DNA of 64,000 nt, from positions 3,038,001-3,102,000 of the forward strand of contig NC_013947.1 in assembly GCF_000024545.1 (NCBI RefSeq), read 5' to 3'. The translations under genes and the position numbers were made by a program. Each line of letters opens with the position of its first letter. Position 1 is the stretch's first letter. The stretch is from Stackebrandtia nassauensis DSM 44728 (lineage in GTDB: Bacteria > Actinomycetota > Actinomycetes > Mycobacteriales > Micromonosporaceae). Below are positions 6,812-11,518 of this stretch, in pieces. The notes below the pieces were generated by a model, which made no database searches, was not told the origin of the DNA, and was given only the letters and a program-made list of their open reading frames with translations.

Positions 6812-7834
6812 CTATCGTTTCGGCGCGCCGGTGCTCTCGCGCACCACGAGCGTCGAGGCGATCGGCTCCGGACGCGGGTCGCTGTCACCGTCCAGAATCG
6901 CCAGCAGGGTCGCGATCGCGGTGCGCCCCATCTCGTCGAAGTCCTGCCGGATCGTCGTCAGCGGCGGCGACAGGAACGGGGCCTCGGGGATGTCGTCGAA
7001 GCCGACCACGCTGACGTCGTCGGGGACCCGCAGTCCCTTCTCGTAGAAGGCCCGCAGCATGCCCAGCGCCATCTGGTCGTTGGCGGCGAACACGGCGGTG
7101 ACGTCGGGCTGTGCCGCCAGCATCGCACCCGCCGCGTACCCGGACCGGGCGCTCCAGTCGCCGGTGATGACCGGCGGCTCCACGGCGCCGTGCCGCTCCA
7201 GGATCGAACGCCAGCCCTCGATGCGGTCGCGGGCCTCCAGCCAGTCGCCGGGGCCGGACACGTGCCACACGGTCTTGTGCCCCAGTTCGAGCAGGTGAGC
7301 TGTGGCCTGGGCGGCGCCACCGACCTGGTCCACCGACACCGCGGGCAGGCCGCTGTCGGGTCCACACTCCACGGCCACCGCCGTCAGGTTCCTGGGCATG
7401 CTGTGCAGCGCCGAGCTGACCGCGGTCTGCGGTGCGATGATGACGATGCCGCTGACCCCCTGGTTCGCCAGCGTGTTCGCCGCCTCCACCACACTGGAGC
7501 GATCCAGTTTCTCCAGCGTGGCGATGCTGACGCCGTACCCCTTGGCGCGGGCGGCGCGTTCGATGCCCAGCAGCGTCGAGGCCGGTCCGAACAGGATGGT
7601 GTCGAAGGTGATGACGCCGATCATCGTGGACCGTCGGCTGACCAGCCCGCGCGCCATCGCGTTGGGCCGGTAGTCGAGCTCCTCGATGGCGCGCAGCACC
7701 CGCTCCCGGGTCTCGGGCCGCACCTGCGAACTGTCGTGCAGCACCCGCGAGACGGTCTGGTGGGACACGCCCGCGAGCCGGGCCACGTCGGTCATGACCG
7801 CGGGCCGTTTACCGGCGGGCGAAGCTGTCGTCAC
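6812..7834 (-). CDS. LacI-family transcriptional repressor, probably of the arabinose operon
   Basis: A 340-residue LacI/GalR regulator. The N-terminal helix-turn-helix and hinge are clear (VMTDVARLAGVSHQTVSRVL, then DYRPNAMARGLVSRRS), followed by a periplasmic-binding-protein-like sugar-sensing domain (FAANDQMALGMLRAF, VGFDDIPEAPFLSPPLTT). Two GTG codons lie in frame at the start. The second is chosen because GAGGAG lies six bases before it, while the first overlaps that site. The gene is convergent to the transporter operon and has a LacI-type operator in its own leader, so autoregulation is likely. Control of araBDA is inferred from position. Confidence 0.9.
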   Translation of the reverse strand: MTTASPAGKRPAVMTDVARLAGVSHQTVSRVLHDSSQVRPETRERVLRAIEELDYRPNAMARGLVSRRSTMIGVITFDTILFGPASTLLGIERAARAKGYGVSIATLEKLDRSSVVEAANTLANQGVSGIVIIAPQTAVSSALHSMPRNLTAVAVECGPDSGLPAVSVDQVGGAAQATAHLLELGHKTVWHVSGPGDWLEARDRIEGWRSILERHGAVEPPVITGDWSARSGYAAGAMLAAQPDVTAVFAANDQMALGMLRAFYEKGLRVPDDVSVVGFDDIPEAPFLSPPLTTIRQDFDEMGRTAIATLLAILDGDSDPRPEPIASTLVVRESTGAPKR

Positions 7835-7874
7835 GGGCACTCCTCGGTTGTCGGCCGCTGTCGGCTCGACCCAT

Positions 7875-7886
7875 GTTAACGCTAAC
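7875..7886. promoter_or_regulatory. LacI-type operator upstream of the repressor gene
   Basis: GTTAACGCTAAC is an inverted repeat (GTTA, four bases, TAAC) centred on a CG step. It lies 41 bases upstream of the repressor's start codon. This matches the general actinobacterial LacI operator form (TGTTAGCGCTAACA-like). It is the only such site visible here; the operon's own promoter lies left of the window. Confidence 0.7.
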
Positions 7887-8009
7887 GTGCGGCGACGGTT
7901 CCACGCGGCGAGGTTTTCGTCCGGCCGCCGTGGGCCGGGTAAACGTGTTGCCGTCGCCCACGGCCACACCGTACTGTTGCGAGTCGCCGAAGTGGAGAGG
8001 CAGGTGTAT

Positions 8010-8747
8010 ATGACGAAGCTCAACCAGATCATCGCGGTCGAGAAGAGCGTGAAGGCCAAGGCACAGGGTGCTTTGAGCGCCGCGGGCCGGGAACTGTCCA
8101 AACAGCCGCTGCTGTCGGGTATCTCCCGGACGTACCAGCCCAAGGACGAGGAGGGCGAACAGCTGCCCCCGGAGTCGACGAAGGTGCAGGTGCGCGCGGA
8201 GGACACGCTGCGGTCGATCGCGGCCAGCCTGTCCCGGCTGTTCGACGTCACCGGCGCCAAGGACGCGACCAACAACATCGCCACCGCGGACGTCACGATC
8301 GACGACGAGGTGCTGCTGGCCGAGGTCCCCGTGACCTACCTGCTGTTCCTGGAGAAGCAACTGGCCGAACTGCACGGTTTCATCAAGACGCTTCCGGTGC
8401 TGGACGCGGCGGAGTCGTGGACGTTCAACGACTCGGCCGACTGCTTCGCCACCGAACCGGTGCGCACGATCCGCACCAAGAAGGTGCCGCGCAACCACGT
8501 CAAGGCCGAGGCCACCGAAAAGCACCCGGCCCAGGTCGAGGTGTACCACGAAGACGTGACGATCGGTTACTGGAACACGGTGAAGTTCTCCGGCGCGATC
8601 CCGGCCAAGCGGGTGTCGCAGCTGCTGGACCGGGTCGAGAAGCTGCAGCACGCGGTGAAGTTCGCCCGTGAGGAGGCCAACGCCACCGAGGTCGTCGACT
8701 ACAAGGTGGGGGACAAGGTGTTCGGTTACCTGTTCGGCAACGGGTAG
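8010..8747 (+). CDS. Conserved actinobacterial protein of unknown function
   Basis: A 245-residue soluble protein that I recognise only as a conserved actinobacterial hypothetical. It is highly charged. It carries a YQPKDEEGEQLPPEST stretch near residue 45, a VTYLLFLEKQLAELH segment and a basic region TIRTKKVPRNHVKAEATEKHPAQ, and ends in a LLDRVEKLQHAVKFAREEAN helix. No signal peptide or membrane segment is visible. ATG start with GGAGAGG at 7994-8000. It is read away from the LacI gene. Long antisense frames cover the locus but have no family features. Function unknown. Confidence 0.85.
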   Translation: MTKLNQIIAVEKSVKAKAQGALSAAGRELSKQPLLSGISRTYQPKDEEGEQLPPESTKVQVRAEDTLRSIAASLSRLFDVTGAKDATNNIATADVTIDDEVLLAEVPVTYLLFLEKQLAELHGFIKTLPVLDAAESWTFNDSADCFATEPVRTIRTKKVPRNHVKAEATEKHPAQVEVYHEDVTIGYWNTVKFSGAIPAKRVSQLLDRVEKLQHAVKFAREEANATEVVDYKVGDKVFGYLFGNG

Positions 8748-8758
8748 CCTTCGAGACT

Positions 8759-8783
8759 CCTCCGGGCCGCTAAAGCCCGGAGG
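8759..8783 (+). promoter_or_regulatory. Perfect 9-bp hairpin that hides a Shine-Dalgarno sequence
   Basis: CCTCCGGGC (8759-8767) and GCCCGGAGG (8775-8783) form a perfect 9-bp stem with a 7-base loop, starting 12 bases after the preceding stop codon. It could be a terminator of that gene, but no T-run follows. Its 3' arm contains GGAGG placed five bases before an ATG at 8789, so it could equally mask translation of the small frame that follows or form the 5' end of the structured RNA downstream. Confidence 0.6.
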
Positions 8784-8788
8784 TGCGC

Positions 8789-8863
8789 ATGGAGCGCAAG
8801 CTGAAACTAAGGTTCAGACTGATCGCGGCCAAACCGCCGCGCAGACTCAGATTCTCGCTCTAG
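8789..8863 (+). CDS. Possible 24-residue basic leader peptide
   Basis: An ATG preceded by GGAGG at five bases opens a 24-codon frame ending in TAG. The peptide is strongly basic (about nine Lys/Arg) and ends RRLRFSL. Four of its six Arg codons are AGG or AGA and one Leu codon is CTA, all rare in such GC-rich genomes, which would suit a stalling leader or may mean that it is not translated. The Shine-Dalgarno is locked in the 8759-8783 stem and the ATG sits in the loop of a second hairpin (TGCGC/GCGCA). It may simply be part of the structured RNA. Confidence 0.3.
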   Translation: MERKLKLRFRLIAAKPPRRLRFSL

Positions 8864-8914
8864 ATTCAGCATTCGCCGCTTCGGCGTCGAAGCGATCGTG
8901 TGCCTGCCTTGGGA

Positions 8915-8986
8915 CCTCGTCATTGCTGGTTCGAGTCCGGCCCGGGCCTCCACAGTGGCCCGGTGGCGTAATGGAAACGCGCGAGG
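8915..8986 (+). tRNA. Circularly permuted tRNA-like gene (3' half precedes 5' half)
   Basis: 3' half, in order: anticodon-stem strand CCTCG 8915-8919, variable loop 8920-8924, T stem GCTGG, T loop TTCGAGT (8930-8936), CCGGC, acceptor strand CCGGGCC 8942-8948, T73 and CCA 8950-8952. After four bases (CAGT) comes the 5' half: acceptor GGCCCGG 8957-8963, TG, D stem GCGT/ACGC with loop AATGGAA 8970-8976, G26, then CGAGG 8982-8986. Acceptor (7 bp), D (4 bp) and anticodon (5 bp) stems are perfect; the T stem has one G-U. U8-A14, A15-U48 and G18G19 are present. The amino acid is unknown: U73, G2:C71 and C3:G70 recall tRNA-Cys, while joining the loop ends would give a Pro-like loop. Confidence 0.7.
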
Positions 8987-9045
8987 CTAGTAGCAGCCTG
9001 ACAGCACACTTAAACGACTCGACGCCGCCATACAGGTGGCATATG

Positions 9046-9078
9046 CCGGGCCGGGAGAGGGTAAAACTCCCGGCCCGG
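9046..9078. terminator. 12-bp perfect stem-loop, bidirectional terminator candidate
   Basis: CCGGGCCGGGAG (9046-9057) pairs perfectly with CTCCCGGCCCGG (9067-9078) around a 9-base A-rich loop. No T-run follows, which is common for actinobacterial terminators. It lies between the permuted tRNA-like RNA and the minus-strand gene remnants, so it could end both transcripts. Confidence 0.6.
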
Positions 9079-9090
9079 TCCCTTGTCGAC

Positions 9091-9267
9091 TCAGCCGAGT
9101 TCCCGCTCCAGCCGGGCCAGCGCCCCCCGCGGCCCGCCGCACCACCCGCACCGCGATGGGCCACAAACGCGCGCCACATACGGGCCGAGCCGGTCCAGCA
9201 GCTCCGCCATGGCGAGGGTGTCCCCGCCGCGCGCGCGCCGGATCAGCTCGATCTCAGGGTCGGTCAC
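9091..9267 (-). pseudogene. Fragment resembling the start of an RNA polymerase sigma factor
   Basis: A 58-residue frame whose first ~35 residues (DPEIELIRRARGGDTLAMAE and the LLDRLGPYVARVCG that follows) look like the opening of sigma-70 region 2. The rest of region 2 and all of region 4 are absent, and the Gly/Cys-rich tail does not fit the family. The GTG start overlaps the TGA of the neighbouring hydrolase remnant (GTGA), so the pair was once a coupled operon. It is best read as a sigma-factor gene shortened by an internal deletion; a very small functional protein cannot be excluded. Confidence 0.5.
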
Positions 9268-9683
9268 GACAGGAAGGCTTTCATGAGCGCGGTGGTCTCG
9301 TCCGGGCAATCGAGGGTGAGGGCGTGTCCACAGTCATCGACCATGTGGGCCTCGGCGTCGGGGATCAACTTCGCGAACCGGGCCGCCTGTGCCGGCGGCA
9401 TAATCGTGTCCTGATCGCCCCAGACGACGAGCGTCGGTTGCGTCGTCGCCGCCACCAGCTCGGTAGTGGCGAGTTCCTTGTGCACGAACATGTTCGCGGC
9501 ACTGTCGCGCAACGCGTCCTCAAGGTCGACGACATACACGGTGCGCGACGCGGCCAAGGCCTCCACCTGCGGCTCCCACATGAACGTCGACGCCGTACCG
9601 GCCGACAACAACACCAACGGCGGACCCGACCCCTTACCGGGGTACTCCGCCGAACCCGGCGAATACCCATAAGATGTCGGCAC
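9264..9683 (-). pseudogene. Alpha/beta hydrolase remnant lacking its catalytic core
   Basis: About 139 residues remain. The N-terminal strand and oxyanion region (PPLVLLSAGTASTFMWEPQVEAL, given here as separate blocks PPLVLL, STFMW, PQVEAL) and the C-terminal third (PTLVVWGDQDTIMPP, then DDCGHALTLDCPDET) are clear. After RTVYVVDL the sequence jumps to ALRDSAANMF, so the stretch carrying the nucleophile elbow GxSxG and the cap, about 100 residues in normal members, is missing in frame. The acid and histidine survive but no nucleophile does, so it should be inactive. The first plausible start (GTG at 9683) lies only 18 bases from the divergent acetyltransferase start. Confidence 0.7.
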
Positions 9684-9701
9684 CCATCCCGAGGAGGAAC
9701 C

Positions 9702-10280
9702 GTGCCGGTACGCGTCGCCACCACGATGGACGCCGCCGCGATCCAGCGAGTACGAGTCGACAGCTGGCGGGCCGGATACGCCGGAGTCGTCCCCGCCCCC
9801 GTCCTGGCATCGATGTCCACCGAAGTCCCCGAACACCTGACCCGACGCCTGGCCGAACCACCCCCCTCCTGCGCCCTCTACGTGGACGAACTGGACGGCG
9901 ACATCCGGGGCTTCGTCAACTGCGGCCCCTACCGACACGACCAGGACGCCACCCGACGCGACCCCAGCCAGGGCGGCGAGATCTACGCGATCTACGTCGC
10001 CCCCACCCACTGGGGCGGCGGGGCCGGACAGGCCCTGATGACCCAAGCCCTCACCCACCTGGAACACGAAAACCTGAACCCGGTCCGCCTGTGGGTACTC
10101 GCCGACAACCCACGCGCCCGCCGCTTCTACGAACGCGGCGGCTTCACACTCGACGGCGCCGCATCGCCCTACATCTTCGACGACGGCACCACACTCACCG
10201 AAGTCCGCTACCGCCGCGACCAGCCATTATCGAACCACTGGGAACTCGTGCAGGATTCGTGCAAGGTTCAGGAGCCTTGA
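9702..10280 (+). CDS. GNAT-family N-acetyltransferase
   Basis: A 192-residue acetyl-CoA-dependent acetyltransferase. The fold is shown by VRVATTMDAAAIQRVRVDSW at the N-terminus, the core strand GEIYAIYVAPTHWGGGAGQAL carrying the pyrophosphate-binding loop (GGGAGQ), and LWVLADNPRARRFYERGGF. The substrate is unknown. GTG start with GAGGAGGA at 9691-9698. It probably shares a very short divergent promoter with the decayed hydrolase. Confidence 0.88.
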   Translation: MPVRVATTMDAAAIQRVRVDSWRAGYAGVVPAPVLASMSTEVPEHLTRRLAEPPPSCALYVDELDGDIRGFVNCGPYRHDQDATRRDPSQGGEIYAIYVAPTHWGGGAGQALMTQALTHLEHENLNPVRLWVLADNPRARRFYERGGFTLDGAASPYIFDDGTTLTEVRYRRDQPLSNHWELVQDSCKVQEP

Positions 10281-10315
10281 GAGGAGCGATAAGCGAACTC
10301 AAGGGGCTACGACAG

Positions 10316-11518
10316 ATGACCTATCCGAACCATCAGCACGAGTACTACCCGGGCACCGTGCTGACACCTACCCCCAAAAAACCGAGGTGGGGCCGAATCC
10401 TGGGCGGCATCGCCGTGGTGATCGTCGTATTGGCCGGAGTCGGTGGCACACTCGTCGCGACCGGGGTCATCAGTCTGGGCGGCTCCGAGCCCAAGATCTC
10501 CGAGCCCAAACCCGAAGACCAGACCTACGGCTTCATCTCCGATCTCTGCGGACAAGCTCAGTTTGACGACGTCGAGGACACCTTCGCGCCGATCAGCGGC
10601 GACACCAGCGATGATTTCACGCCCTACGAGGGATTCGGCGTTCAGTCCTGCAGCGCGCAGCTCTACGACTCCGTCTCCGAGAAGTTCGGTGATGTCCGAG
10701 TTGACGTCACCGTCTTCGAGAAGAGCGCCGATGCGAAGGAGCACTTCGAACCAGATGGTGGATTCGAGGGCTATGAACTGGAAAAGCTCAAAGGCGACTG
10801 GATGCAGGGCAACTCAGCCATCATGAAGCTGGATGGTGGCGGGACACGTCACGGCGCCAAGATTCTTGACGGGAACCTGCACCTTTCCGTCAGTGCCTTC
10901 GTCTCCGGGCTGGACCCGGATGAGAAACAGGCGACAGGCGTCATGTCGAACCTGGTCAACAACCTCATGGTTCCGTTGGTGAAGTCCGAGGATCTCAAAG
11001 AGCCGCCGTCCGGCAATGGACAATCGAAGCCGAAGTCCGGGGCGTACTCCTTCATGGACGATTTCTGCGAGAAGATCGACTGGTCGAGTCTCGACTCGTT
11101 CCCGTTCGAGAGCCTCGACAACAGCGAATACACCGCCGACGCCGACGGCAAGGGTATGTCCCAGGAGAGCTGCGAGAACGGGACCTTTGATGACAAGGAA
11201 CTGAAATCCAACGCCGCGTTGATATTCAAGGTGAGCACTCACCCCGATGCCAACGCCGCTGAGAAGGAGTACAAGCGGCTGAAGGAATCGATGGAGACCA
11301 GCCACAAGACCGTCACCGACGCCGAGGGAAAGTGGTCGCAGGGGAAACTGGGTGAGGTCGGTGGTCCGGTCCGGATCGAGACCAGCGTCGTGATTCTGGA
11401 CGACAACCTCACCGCGAACATCGTCCTCGCGTTCAACGGGGATGAGGGGACGCCGACAGCCGCGAAGAAGGCTCTGCTCGACCTGGCCGGACAGACCATC
11501 AAGGTTCACCAGGAGTGA
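10316..11518 (+). CDS. Membrane-anchored extracellular protein with two similar lobes
   Basis: A 400-residue protein with a cytoplasmic N-tail of about 28 residues, one transmembrane segment (about residues 30-52, IAVVIVVLAGVGGTLVATGV) and a large extracytoplasmic part. That part looks duplicated: YGFISDLCGQ near residue 67 and YSFMDDFCEK near residue 245 open two lobes, each with a later conserved Cys and an E/K-rich stretch. Four Cys suggest one disulphide per lobe. I do not recognise a named family. It is less GC-rich than its neighbours and stands alone. Confidence 0.8.
   Translation: MTYPNHQHEYYPGTVLTPTPKKPRWGRILGGIAVVIVVLAGVGGTLVATGVISLGGSEPKISEPKPEDQTYGFISDLCGQAQFDDVEDTFAPISGDTSDDFTPYEGFGVQSCSAQLYDSVSEKFGDVRVDVTVFEKSADAKEHFEPDGGFEGYELEKLKGDWMQGNSAIMKLDGGGTRHGAKILDGNLHLSVSAFVSGLDPDEKQATGVMSNLVNNLMVPLVKSEDLKEPPSGNGQSKPKSGAYSFMDDFCEKIDWSSLDSFPFESLDNSEYTADADGKGMSQESCENGTFDDKELKSNAALIFKVSTHPDANAAEKEYKRLKESMETSHKTVTDAEGKWSQGKLGEVGGPVRIETSVVILDDNLTANIVLAFNGDEGTPTAAKKALLDLAGQTIKVHQE

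Follow-up and report, generated by a model that had tools for sequence, protein, structure and literature searches.

At 8915-8986, the permuted cloverleaf forms one arm of a conserved noncoding RNA that measures about 320 nt and lies just downstream of a DUF7873 gene in Stackebrandtia nassauensis DSM 44728 (positions refer to the window, the whole 64,000-nt stretch of contig NC_013947.1 that was analysed). Such tRNA-like modules beside DUF7873 recur in many actinobacterial genomes, as well as in phages that infect actinobacteria, cyanobacteria, alphaproteobacteria or gammaproteobacteria. We think it probable that the locus encodes a small ribonucleoprotein (RNP), made up of DUF7873 and a structured RNA of 0.3-0.4 kb downstream on the same strand, whose arms mimic tRNA in the manner of Y RNAs. 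The best reading of the DUF7873-linked RNA is as a new class of Y-RNA-like RNP in which DUF7873 is the likely protein partner, the suggested likeness to Y RNAs being purely one of topology. To our knowledge, Ro60 has so far been the one protein linked to the tRNA mimicry of bacterial Y RNAs; the DUF7873-linked RNA shows such mimicry with a different, uncharacterized protein of no recognised fold, and often twice per RNA.

A permuted tRNA-like fold on a larger RNA

Every strand of a cloverleaf is present on the forward strand at 8915-8986, with the 3' half first, followed by CCA, the tetranucleotide CAGT and then the 5' half. The preliminary description had called this a circularly permuted tRNA gene with perfectly paired stems, and direct reading bears out the pairing in the acceptor (7/7), D (4/4) and anticodon (5/5) stems. 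Our permuted-cloverleaf finder scored 21/21 pairs for this element, hereafter domain 2. The domain has the 7-bp acceptor, D and T arms, U8, A14, G18G19 and T54-A58 of a tRNA core, where the stems, the GG and the T loop are demanded by the finder and U8 and A14 are not. An anticodon stem-loop fit for decoding is absent. Since there is no anticodon loop and the anticodon stem continues into two conserved long-range helices (LR1 and LR2), 8915-8986 is not a tRNA gene; what stands of the earlier reading is a full permuted tRNA-like fold, conserved with compensatory changes. An intact tRNA overlapping the locus was also looked for, and ARAGORN found no ordinary tRNA in the window. The features of the locus are as follows.

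6812-7795, - strand: LacI-family regulator gene, divergent from the DUF7873 gene (start estimated from the domain match)
8010-8747, + strand: DUF7873 (PF25283) gene, 245 aa (Pfam 2.8e-113 on the longer open reading frame; alignments A1 and A2; AlphaFold2)
8759-8783, + strand: 5' hairpin of nine pairs, CCTCCGGGC/GCCCGGAGG (sequence; minimum-energy fold)
8784-8798, + strand: small hairpin TGCGC-ATGGA-GCGCA (sequence; minimum-energy fold)
8800-8822, + strand: 5' strand of the stem bearing domain 1 in relatives, GCTGA...CTGA (helices 92.6% and 88.4% paired)
8824-8841, + strand: domain-1 remnant, anticodon stem CGCGG/CCGCG closing on CCAAACCG (relatives; minimum-energy fold)
8846-8877, + strand: conserved block CTCAGATTCTCGCTCTAGATTCAGCATTCGCC, which includes the 3' strand of the domain-1 stem (alignment A3)
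8883-8888, + strand: LR1 5' strand GGCGTC, partner 9021-9026 (6/6 pairs changed on both sides, 94.6% paired)
8898-8903, + strand: LR2 5' strand GTGTGC, partner 9004-9009 (family helix 8/8 changed on both sides, 84.7% paired)
8915-8948, + strand: tRNA 3' half of domain 2, from anticodon-stem 3' strand to acceptor 3' strand (sequence, finder, covariation)
8915-8919, + strand: domain 2, anticodon-stem 3' strand CCTCG (sequence)
8920-8924, + strand: domain 2, variable loop TCATT (sequence)
8925-8941, + strand: domain 2, T arm GCTGG-TTCGAGT-CCGGC, five pairs including one G-U (sequence)
8942-8948, + strand: domain 2, acceptor 3' strand CCGGGCC (sequence)
8949-8956, + strand: domain 2, acceptor loop, with T73 at 8949, CCA at 8950-8952 and CAGT at 8953-8956 (sequence)
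8957-8986, + strand: tRNA 5' half of domain 2, from acceptor 5' strand to anticodon-stem 5' strand (sequence, finder, covariation)
8957-8963, + strand: domain 2, acceptor 5' strand GGCCCGG, followed by U8 and G9
8966-8980, + strand: domain 2, D arm GCGT-AATGGAA-ACGC (sequence)
8981-8986, + strand: domain 2, G26 at 8981 and anticodon-stem 5' strand CGAGG at 8982-8986 (sequence)
9004-9009, + strand: LR2 3' strand GCACAC (covariation; minimum-energy fold)
9010-9016, + strand: TTAAACG linker between LR2 and LR1, kept in many relatives (alignment A3)
9021-9026, + strand: LR1 3' strand GACGCC (covariation; minimum-energy fold)
9046-9078, + strand: terminator-like hairpin CCGGGCCGGGAG/CTCCCGGCCCGG, lacking a U run (sequence; minimum-energy fold)

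The unconstrained minimum-energy fold of 8757-9082 holds the T arm, acceptor, D arm and anticodon stem of domain 2 together with LR1 and LR2, and its stability corresponds to z -5.9, with none of 100 shuffles as stable. Each tRNA-like domain sits at the tip of an arm, attached through its anticodon stem: domain 2 stands on LR2 and then LR1, and domain 1 of relatives stands on the stem GCTGA...CTGA / TCAG...TCAGC. The window RNA has no domain 1, keeping the stem and the anticodon stem that would carry it while an 8-nt loop (8829-8836) replaces the rest, and this natural loss suggests that the tRNA-like modules are independent of each other. A candidate domain 1 of the window at 8748-8790 was rejected, as that region is the 5' hairpin and domain 1 is missing. 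The strong hairpin at 9046-9078 is probably the 3' end of the RNA; it was not reported by a terminator consensus scan that requires a T run. From the sequence, a hairpin competing with LR1 is possible, formed by GATC...GATC in relatives and by CGCTTC/GAAGCG in the window.

Conservation and covariation

The preliminary description had proposed that related loci be examined for compensatory stem changes, and these were found in 54 of 64 base pairs, each showing changes on both sides in alignment A3. This alignment comprises 108 sequences, namely the window and 107 finder-picked rows chosen from 135 with two well-spaced domains, acceptor loops of at most 14 nt and near-duplicates dropped. Across A3, 90.1% of cells are paired, as against 38-45% when partners are slid by one to three columns, and 1085 cells are changed on both sides, as against a mean of 368 after shuffling and 144-289 after sliding. 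Because the finder placed the T and acceptor columns, the pairing there arises partly by selection; most T, acceptor and D stem pairs were demanded by the finder, and LR1, LR2 and the domain-1 stem were not. These helices outside the finder's demands are nevertheless paired in 92.4% (LR1), 88.4% and 79.4% (the two parts of LR2) and 92.6% and 88.4% (domain-1 stem) of A3 cells, and all 14 pairs of LR1 and LR2 changed on both sides. Mutual information over 113 sequences was highest for the acceptor and T stems of both domains, the domain-2 D-stem pairs and the two long-range helices, and in alignment A4 the five helices of the domain-2 arm are paired in 94.3% of cells.

The weakest helices on A3 are the anticodon stems (57.1% and 81.8% in domain 1, 48.2% in domain 2). 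When the variable loop is left free, at least four of five anticodon-stem pairs form in 100/107 rows for domain 1 and 96/107 for domain 2 (strand-swap means 75 and 57), and all five in 75/107 and 60/107 (strand-swap means 23 and 15), a pairing that the finder also favours. U8, which the finder does not demand, is kept in 105/107 rows in domain 1 and in all 107 in domain 2, and A14, likewise not demanded, in 105/107 and 97/107. Homologues differ in the first acceptor base, in the discriminator and in the NCCA. Judged by eye, the conserved block keeps no reading frame.

Linkage to DUF7873 and distribution

Permuted domains are a regular companion of DUF7873 genes. The finder required the T loop, at least 4/5 T-stem, 6/7 acceptor and 3/4 D-stem pairs, the D-loop GG and a total of at least 18/21 pairs. 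The 105 DUF7873 loci searched yielded 96 with distinct downstream sequence, of which 94 carry at least one permuted domain downstream of the gene and 71 carry two, usually about 145 nt apart. At the same threshold, only two matches arose among 960 dinucleotide-shuffled downstream regions, and the 96 unique loci gave no site on their reverse strands and one within coding sequences. A chance origin of the permuted cloverleaf is ruled out by these shuffles, the covariation and the linkage. At least one domain was likewise found in 71/79 loci from viral contigs and 77/79 from genome contigs, collections that partly overlap the first set and from which L169 and L251 were excluded for downstream sequence too short. 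Three of the ten misses (L150, L199 and L260) carry domains once acceptor loops of up to 200 nt are permitted; their loops measure 47-117 nt, so this loop accepts large inserts. Among five further misses inspected, L148 shows two imperfect domains by eye, a T arm is visible in L197 close to where the inspected stretch ends, and L161, L200 and L239 show no domain in theirs.

At the DNA level, a search of 200 genomes of the family matched 14, namely the genome itself and 13 others, and on reading the sequences 11 of the 13 are homologues, all 11 lying downstream of a gene similar to the window DUF7873 (59-74% identity). The other two matches, L007 and L014, were rejected as chance matches in apparent coding sequence. 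ARAGORN reported no ordinary tRNA in any of the 13 matched loci. DUF7873 itself was found in 93/200 family genomes, 73/50,697 phage records and 4/72,556 plasmid records.

A covariance model, R1, was built from 57 domain-2 arm sequences including the window, which as a training member scores 92 bits over 8885-9026, with the DUF7873 gene directly upstream. In a survey of 396 phylum genomes, whose strict search filters lose weak matches, DUF7873 occurs in seven, and the seven best R1 matches fall in exactly those seven genomes, at full length, with 63.5-122.6 bits and 150-297 nt past the end of the DUF7873 match; the eighth-best match scores 54 bits. At E <= 0.01 the model matches in 155/396 genomes, and weak R1 matches are therefore mostly other things. 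Among the lower-scoring loci inspected, L308, L314 and L315 are tandem tRNA-Asn genes and L309 and L310 are tRNA-Pro/tRNA-Gly pairs; in these five cases checked, tandem tRNA genes mimic the permuted tRNA weakly, at 43-46 bits.

In the relatives L108-L114, DUF7873 and the RNA lie within arrays of ordinary tRNA genes (15 in 5 kb of L108), an arrangement also met in some phages.

The DUF7873 protein

The longest open reading frame (7686-8747) is over-extended, as homologues in A1 and A2 begin at the methionine of position 8010. The AlphaFold2 model of the protein has a mean pLDDT of 93.7 and a pTM of 0.78. Foldseek found no matches to it at E <= 0.001 in either the PDB or BFVD, the BFVD row of a phage cr118_1 protein (probability 0.99, TM 0.44 on the query) having E 0.047, and a sequence search of the PDB gave a best match at E 0.036; no similarity to a known RNA-binding fold is thus detectable in Foldseek against the PDB and BFVD or in PDB sequences. 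Searches of PHROGs and NCBIfam returned no family, and a literature search of partial coverage found no paper under the name DUF7873. The window protein is mildly acidic (pI 5.8), a property that speaks against the RNP, as does the failure to find an RNA-binding fold. Upstream of it, the LacI-family gene and ABC transporter genes suggest that the locus has ordinary chromosomal surroundings.

Acceptor loops and possible processing

Cleavage of the RNA into tRNA-like pieces is possible. One alternative to an intact RNP is a processed split RNA, in which RNase P would cut 5' of each G1 and 3' maturation would leave CCA; as in two-piece tmRNA, the result would be two or three pieces that hold together non-covalently and have real acceptor ends, which might be aminoacylated. 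We consider this unlikely. In its favour, the acceptor stems have the seven pairs of tRNA, and NCCA occurs in the loop of 51/107 rows in domain 1 and 47/107 in domain 2, a half-encoded CCA that resembles the ordinary tRNA genes of this genome, where 14 of 30 examined encode it (45 tRNA matches). Both domains carry NCCA in 23/107 rows, while in 32/107 neither does, which speaks against the split RNA, as do tetraloop-like closures in 25/107 rows in domain 1 and 28/107 in domain 2, such that about a quarter of loops look stably closed. Among the 107 rows the most frequent loop length is 7 nt, and the range of 4 to 117 nt that is tolerated is again compatible with cleavage.

The neighbourhood of the loci gives a further handle on the CCA. 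Three or more scorable tRNA genes lie near 42 loci, mostly from phages; at 23 of the 42 none of these genes encodes CCA, and 12 of these 23 nevertheless show NCCA in at least one listed permuted domain, in support of the split RNA. A counter-trend is seen in a Rhizobium phage, where 14/14 tRNA genes encode CCA; in cellular loci within tRNA arrays, CCA is mostly absent from both the tRNA genes and the permuted domains.

In domain 2, pairing of N73 with N-1 is avoided (21/107 rows, as against 42 by a shuffle that ignores kinship) and U-1 is common (69/107), both as expected were the RNA split, but in domain 1 the avoidance is weak (30/104 as against 34, by the same kinship-blind shuffle). The avoidance fits a tRNA-precursor-like end and equally a conserved open loop. 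The discriminator of domain 2 is not fixed (T 68, G 28 and A 11 of 107), and by eye the CCA could pair with UGG in the loop of several distant phages, both of which count against processing; CCA-UGG pairing is described as a known anti-determinant of RNase P (PMC9433436).

A composite of the two readings is unlikely, namely an RNP of DUF7873 and an RNA cut by RNase P and the tRNA 3'-end machinery into several pieces that display one or two genuine split tRNA ends, perhaps charged with an amino acid, by which phages and actinobacteria would act on the translation apparatus or disarm tRNA-targeting defences. With this locus, whether bacteria have split tRNA-like RNAs can be put to a direct test.

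The RNA could also be a cis-regulatory 3' untranslated region, in which tRNA-like arms within the DUF7873 mRNA would place the stability of that mRNA under the control of tRNA-processing enzymes or of DUF7873 itself, an explanation that we consider quite improbable. The domain-1 T loop lies 65-259 nt (median 96) past the stop codon in the 107 rows, and a scan for one promoter type found no promoter consensus between the gene and the RNA in the window, as this explanation would have it. The first domain is much farther away in L028 (+264), L141 (+405), L044 (+443) and L191 (+541), however, and the structure is more elaborate and conserved than such control seems to require.

Relation to Y RNAs and other known RNAs

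The closest analogue of the DUF7873-linked RNA is the bacterial Y RNA YrlA, described as a stem that binds Rsr/Ro60 joined to a tRNA-like domain that binds PNPase (PMC8394870). Both bear a tRNA mimic on a stem, with T arm, loop-closed acceptor and D arm in permuted order, and both occur in bacteria and phages; the Y RNA module is thus a precedent for the permuted topology, one that the preliminary description did not name. The DUF7873-linked RNA differs in adjoining DUF7873 rather than Ro60, in usually having two modules, in its conserved core with two long-range helices, and in the NCCA present in about half of its acceptor loops, as against two of nine modules beside Ro60.

That the window RNA is a bona fide Ro60-bound Y RNA of the YrlA family is nonetheless very improbable. 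YrlA (RF02553) is the best Rfam family for the window, at 32.6 bits and E 1.6e-4, and homologues score 24-43 bits, but the gathering score of 69 is not reached. This score alone is weak evidence because the model also matches in 7/14 control genomes, and the cut-off alone is not decisive because Ro60-linked Y RNAs fail it as well (29-50 bits, a similar range to that of the window RNA). Given those control matches and the 43-46 bits of tandem tRNA genes, R1 or YrlA scores in the tandem-tRNA range mean little. The genome of the window has no TROVE match, the neighbouring gene being DUF7873, and TROVE is matched in 3 of 11 genomes with the RNA and in 1 of 10 DUF7873 phages, there at a separate locus; a TROVE survey of the phylum at E 1e-30 picked up none of its controls and so carries no weight. 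Where Ro60 is present it lies apart from the DUF7873-linked RNA, and of five TROVE loci, from three related genomes and one phage, four have Y RNA matches of their own at 29-50 bits and one (L295) has none.

The Ro60-side modules share the permuted order, and TROVE was confirmed by Pfam in two of the proteins. Nine such modules were counted, five further matches having been excluded by eye as coding stretches or implausible loops, and two of the nine carry NCCA, as does one more in L305. Permuted domains in L305 and L306 lie beside an open reading frame whose start resembles Ro60 by eye. R1 scores of the Ro60-side modules together with those of L305 and L306 are 24-53 bits, as against 78-103 bits for domain 2 of actinophage DUF7873 RNAs (GodonK being in the training set). 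The tRNA-like module is therefore common to both, whereas the DUF7873 RNA of actinobacteria and actinophages has an architecture and a neighbour gene of its own. Distant phage RNAs score 22-51 bits, overlapping the Y RNAs, and their likeness to the DUF7873-linked RNA covers the module. The identity as a Ro60-bound YrlA is accordingly rejected, for want of a Ro60 match and on architecture, and YrlA is retained as an analogy. Permuted modules also occur away from DUF7873, both beside Ro60 and in L318 (genome G249, with no DUF7873 match), whose permuted domain has a finder score of 20, an R1 score of 42.4 bits and no ordinary tRNA nearby; this is a counterpoint to the DUF7873 RNP.

Large RNAs of phages and mobile elements that lie beside tRNA arrays, GOLLD and ROOL, offer a looser parallel as ornate noncoding RNAs amid phage tRNA genes, and both families are absent among the Rfam matches listed for the stretches scanned. 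The two-piece tmRNA of alphaproteobacteria and cyanobacteria also places the 3' half before the 5' half, with a CCA-like loop end and extra helices, but the DUF7873-linked RNA has two tRNA-like domains, and Rfam (7500-10500 in the window) and ARAGORN found no tmRNA in the window or the 13 loci. In the permuted tRNA genes of red algae and archaea the order of halves is alike, and their products are described as circularized and recut into normal tRNAs (PMC10085705); the DUF7873-linked RNA is without an anticodon loop and shows no sign of end joining. The titles and abstract openings returned by a literature search of partial coverage on permuted tRNA, Y RNA, tRNA mimics and two-piece tmRNA hold nothing that describes the DUF7873-linked RNA.

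A functional permuted tRNA gene for decoding, which would require a ligated, circularized product, or a chance or degenerate product of tandem tRNA genes could account for the full set of cloverleaf strands, and tandem tRNA genes do mimic the pattern weakly, but the missing anticodon loop, the conserved non-tRNA core with its long-range helices, the lack of ordinary tRNAs in the window and the 13 first homologue loci, the strong covariation, the shuffles and the DUF7873 linkage lead us to reject the chance and tandem-tRNA origins and to give decoding a negligible probability.

A proposed tRNA-mimic particle and its phage loci

In the favoured reading as a DUF7873 RNP, the RNA would be transcribed and its core, bearing one or two arms that each end in an L-shaped tRNA mimic, would bind DUF7873 by analogy with Y RNAs. 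Each mimic would be attached by its anticodon stem, so that both ends of the transcript are on the anticodon side and a short loop caps the acceptor, an arrangement that for this reason reads as a circularly permuted tRNA. Following the same analogy, we infer that tRNA-handling enzymes would recognise the mimics, and would either be tethered to the RNP, with the RNA as a scaffold, or be competed away from tRNA, with the RNA as a decoy.

The pair of DUF7873 and RNA is found in phages of Arthrobacter, Gordonia, Rhodococcus, Rhizobium, Klebsiella, Vibrio and Pseudanabaena. Clear domains are present even in distant phages with 28-37% protein identity, namely Vibrio D472, Klebsiella Kp24, Rhizobium TM39, Rhizobium Y1_11 and Pseudanabaena Pam2, and a Microcoleus phage shows a weak and unconvincing domain match directly downstream of DUF7873. 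Within 3-4 kb on each side of DUF7873, tRNA genes were found in 7 of 10 phages examined, leaving a doubtful call in Kp24 uncounted: there are many in Mimi, NiceHouse, GodonK and Rhizobium TM39, one or two in Ziko, Vibrio D472 and Rhizobium Y1_11, and none annotated in these stretches of Pam2 and the Microcoleus phage. Because the pair sits among tRNA genes in several phages, it may serve tRNA-related functions during infection, as this setting suggests. Through one named gene and one defined RNA, it also gives concrete access to the question of why tRNA-related functions are so common in large phages.

In the Microcoleus phage, a stretch with two tandem T arms (L289, 5780-5960), some 2 kb downstream of the DUF7873 gene, scores 39.3 bits with R1; it may be a copy of the RNA that has moved or what is left of tRNA genes.

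In the Klebsiella phage vB_KpM_FBKp24, a 'tRNA-Sup-TTA' is annotated inside the RNA region (L286, 4018-4097), partly over domain 2. It is probably a misannotated piece of the DUF7873-linked RNA, and calls for caution in annotating tRNAs in such regions. The RNA of this Klebsiella phage also gave one partial match to beta_tmRNA, at 24.5 bits against a cut-off of 84.

Rhizobium phage RHph_TM39 carries both kinds of locus, with a Ro60 (TROVE) gene (L293, 1655-2535) and four permuted modules upstream of it, about 5 kb from the DUF7873 locus.
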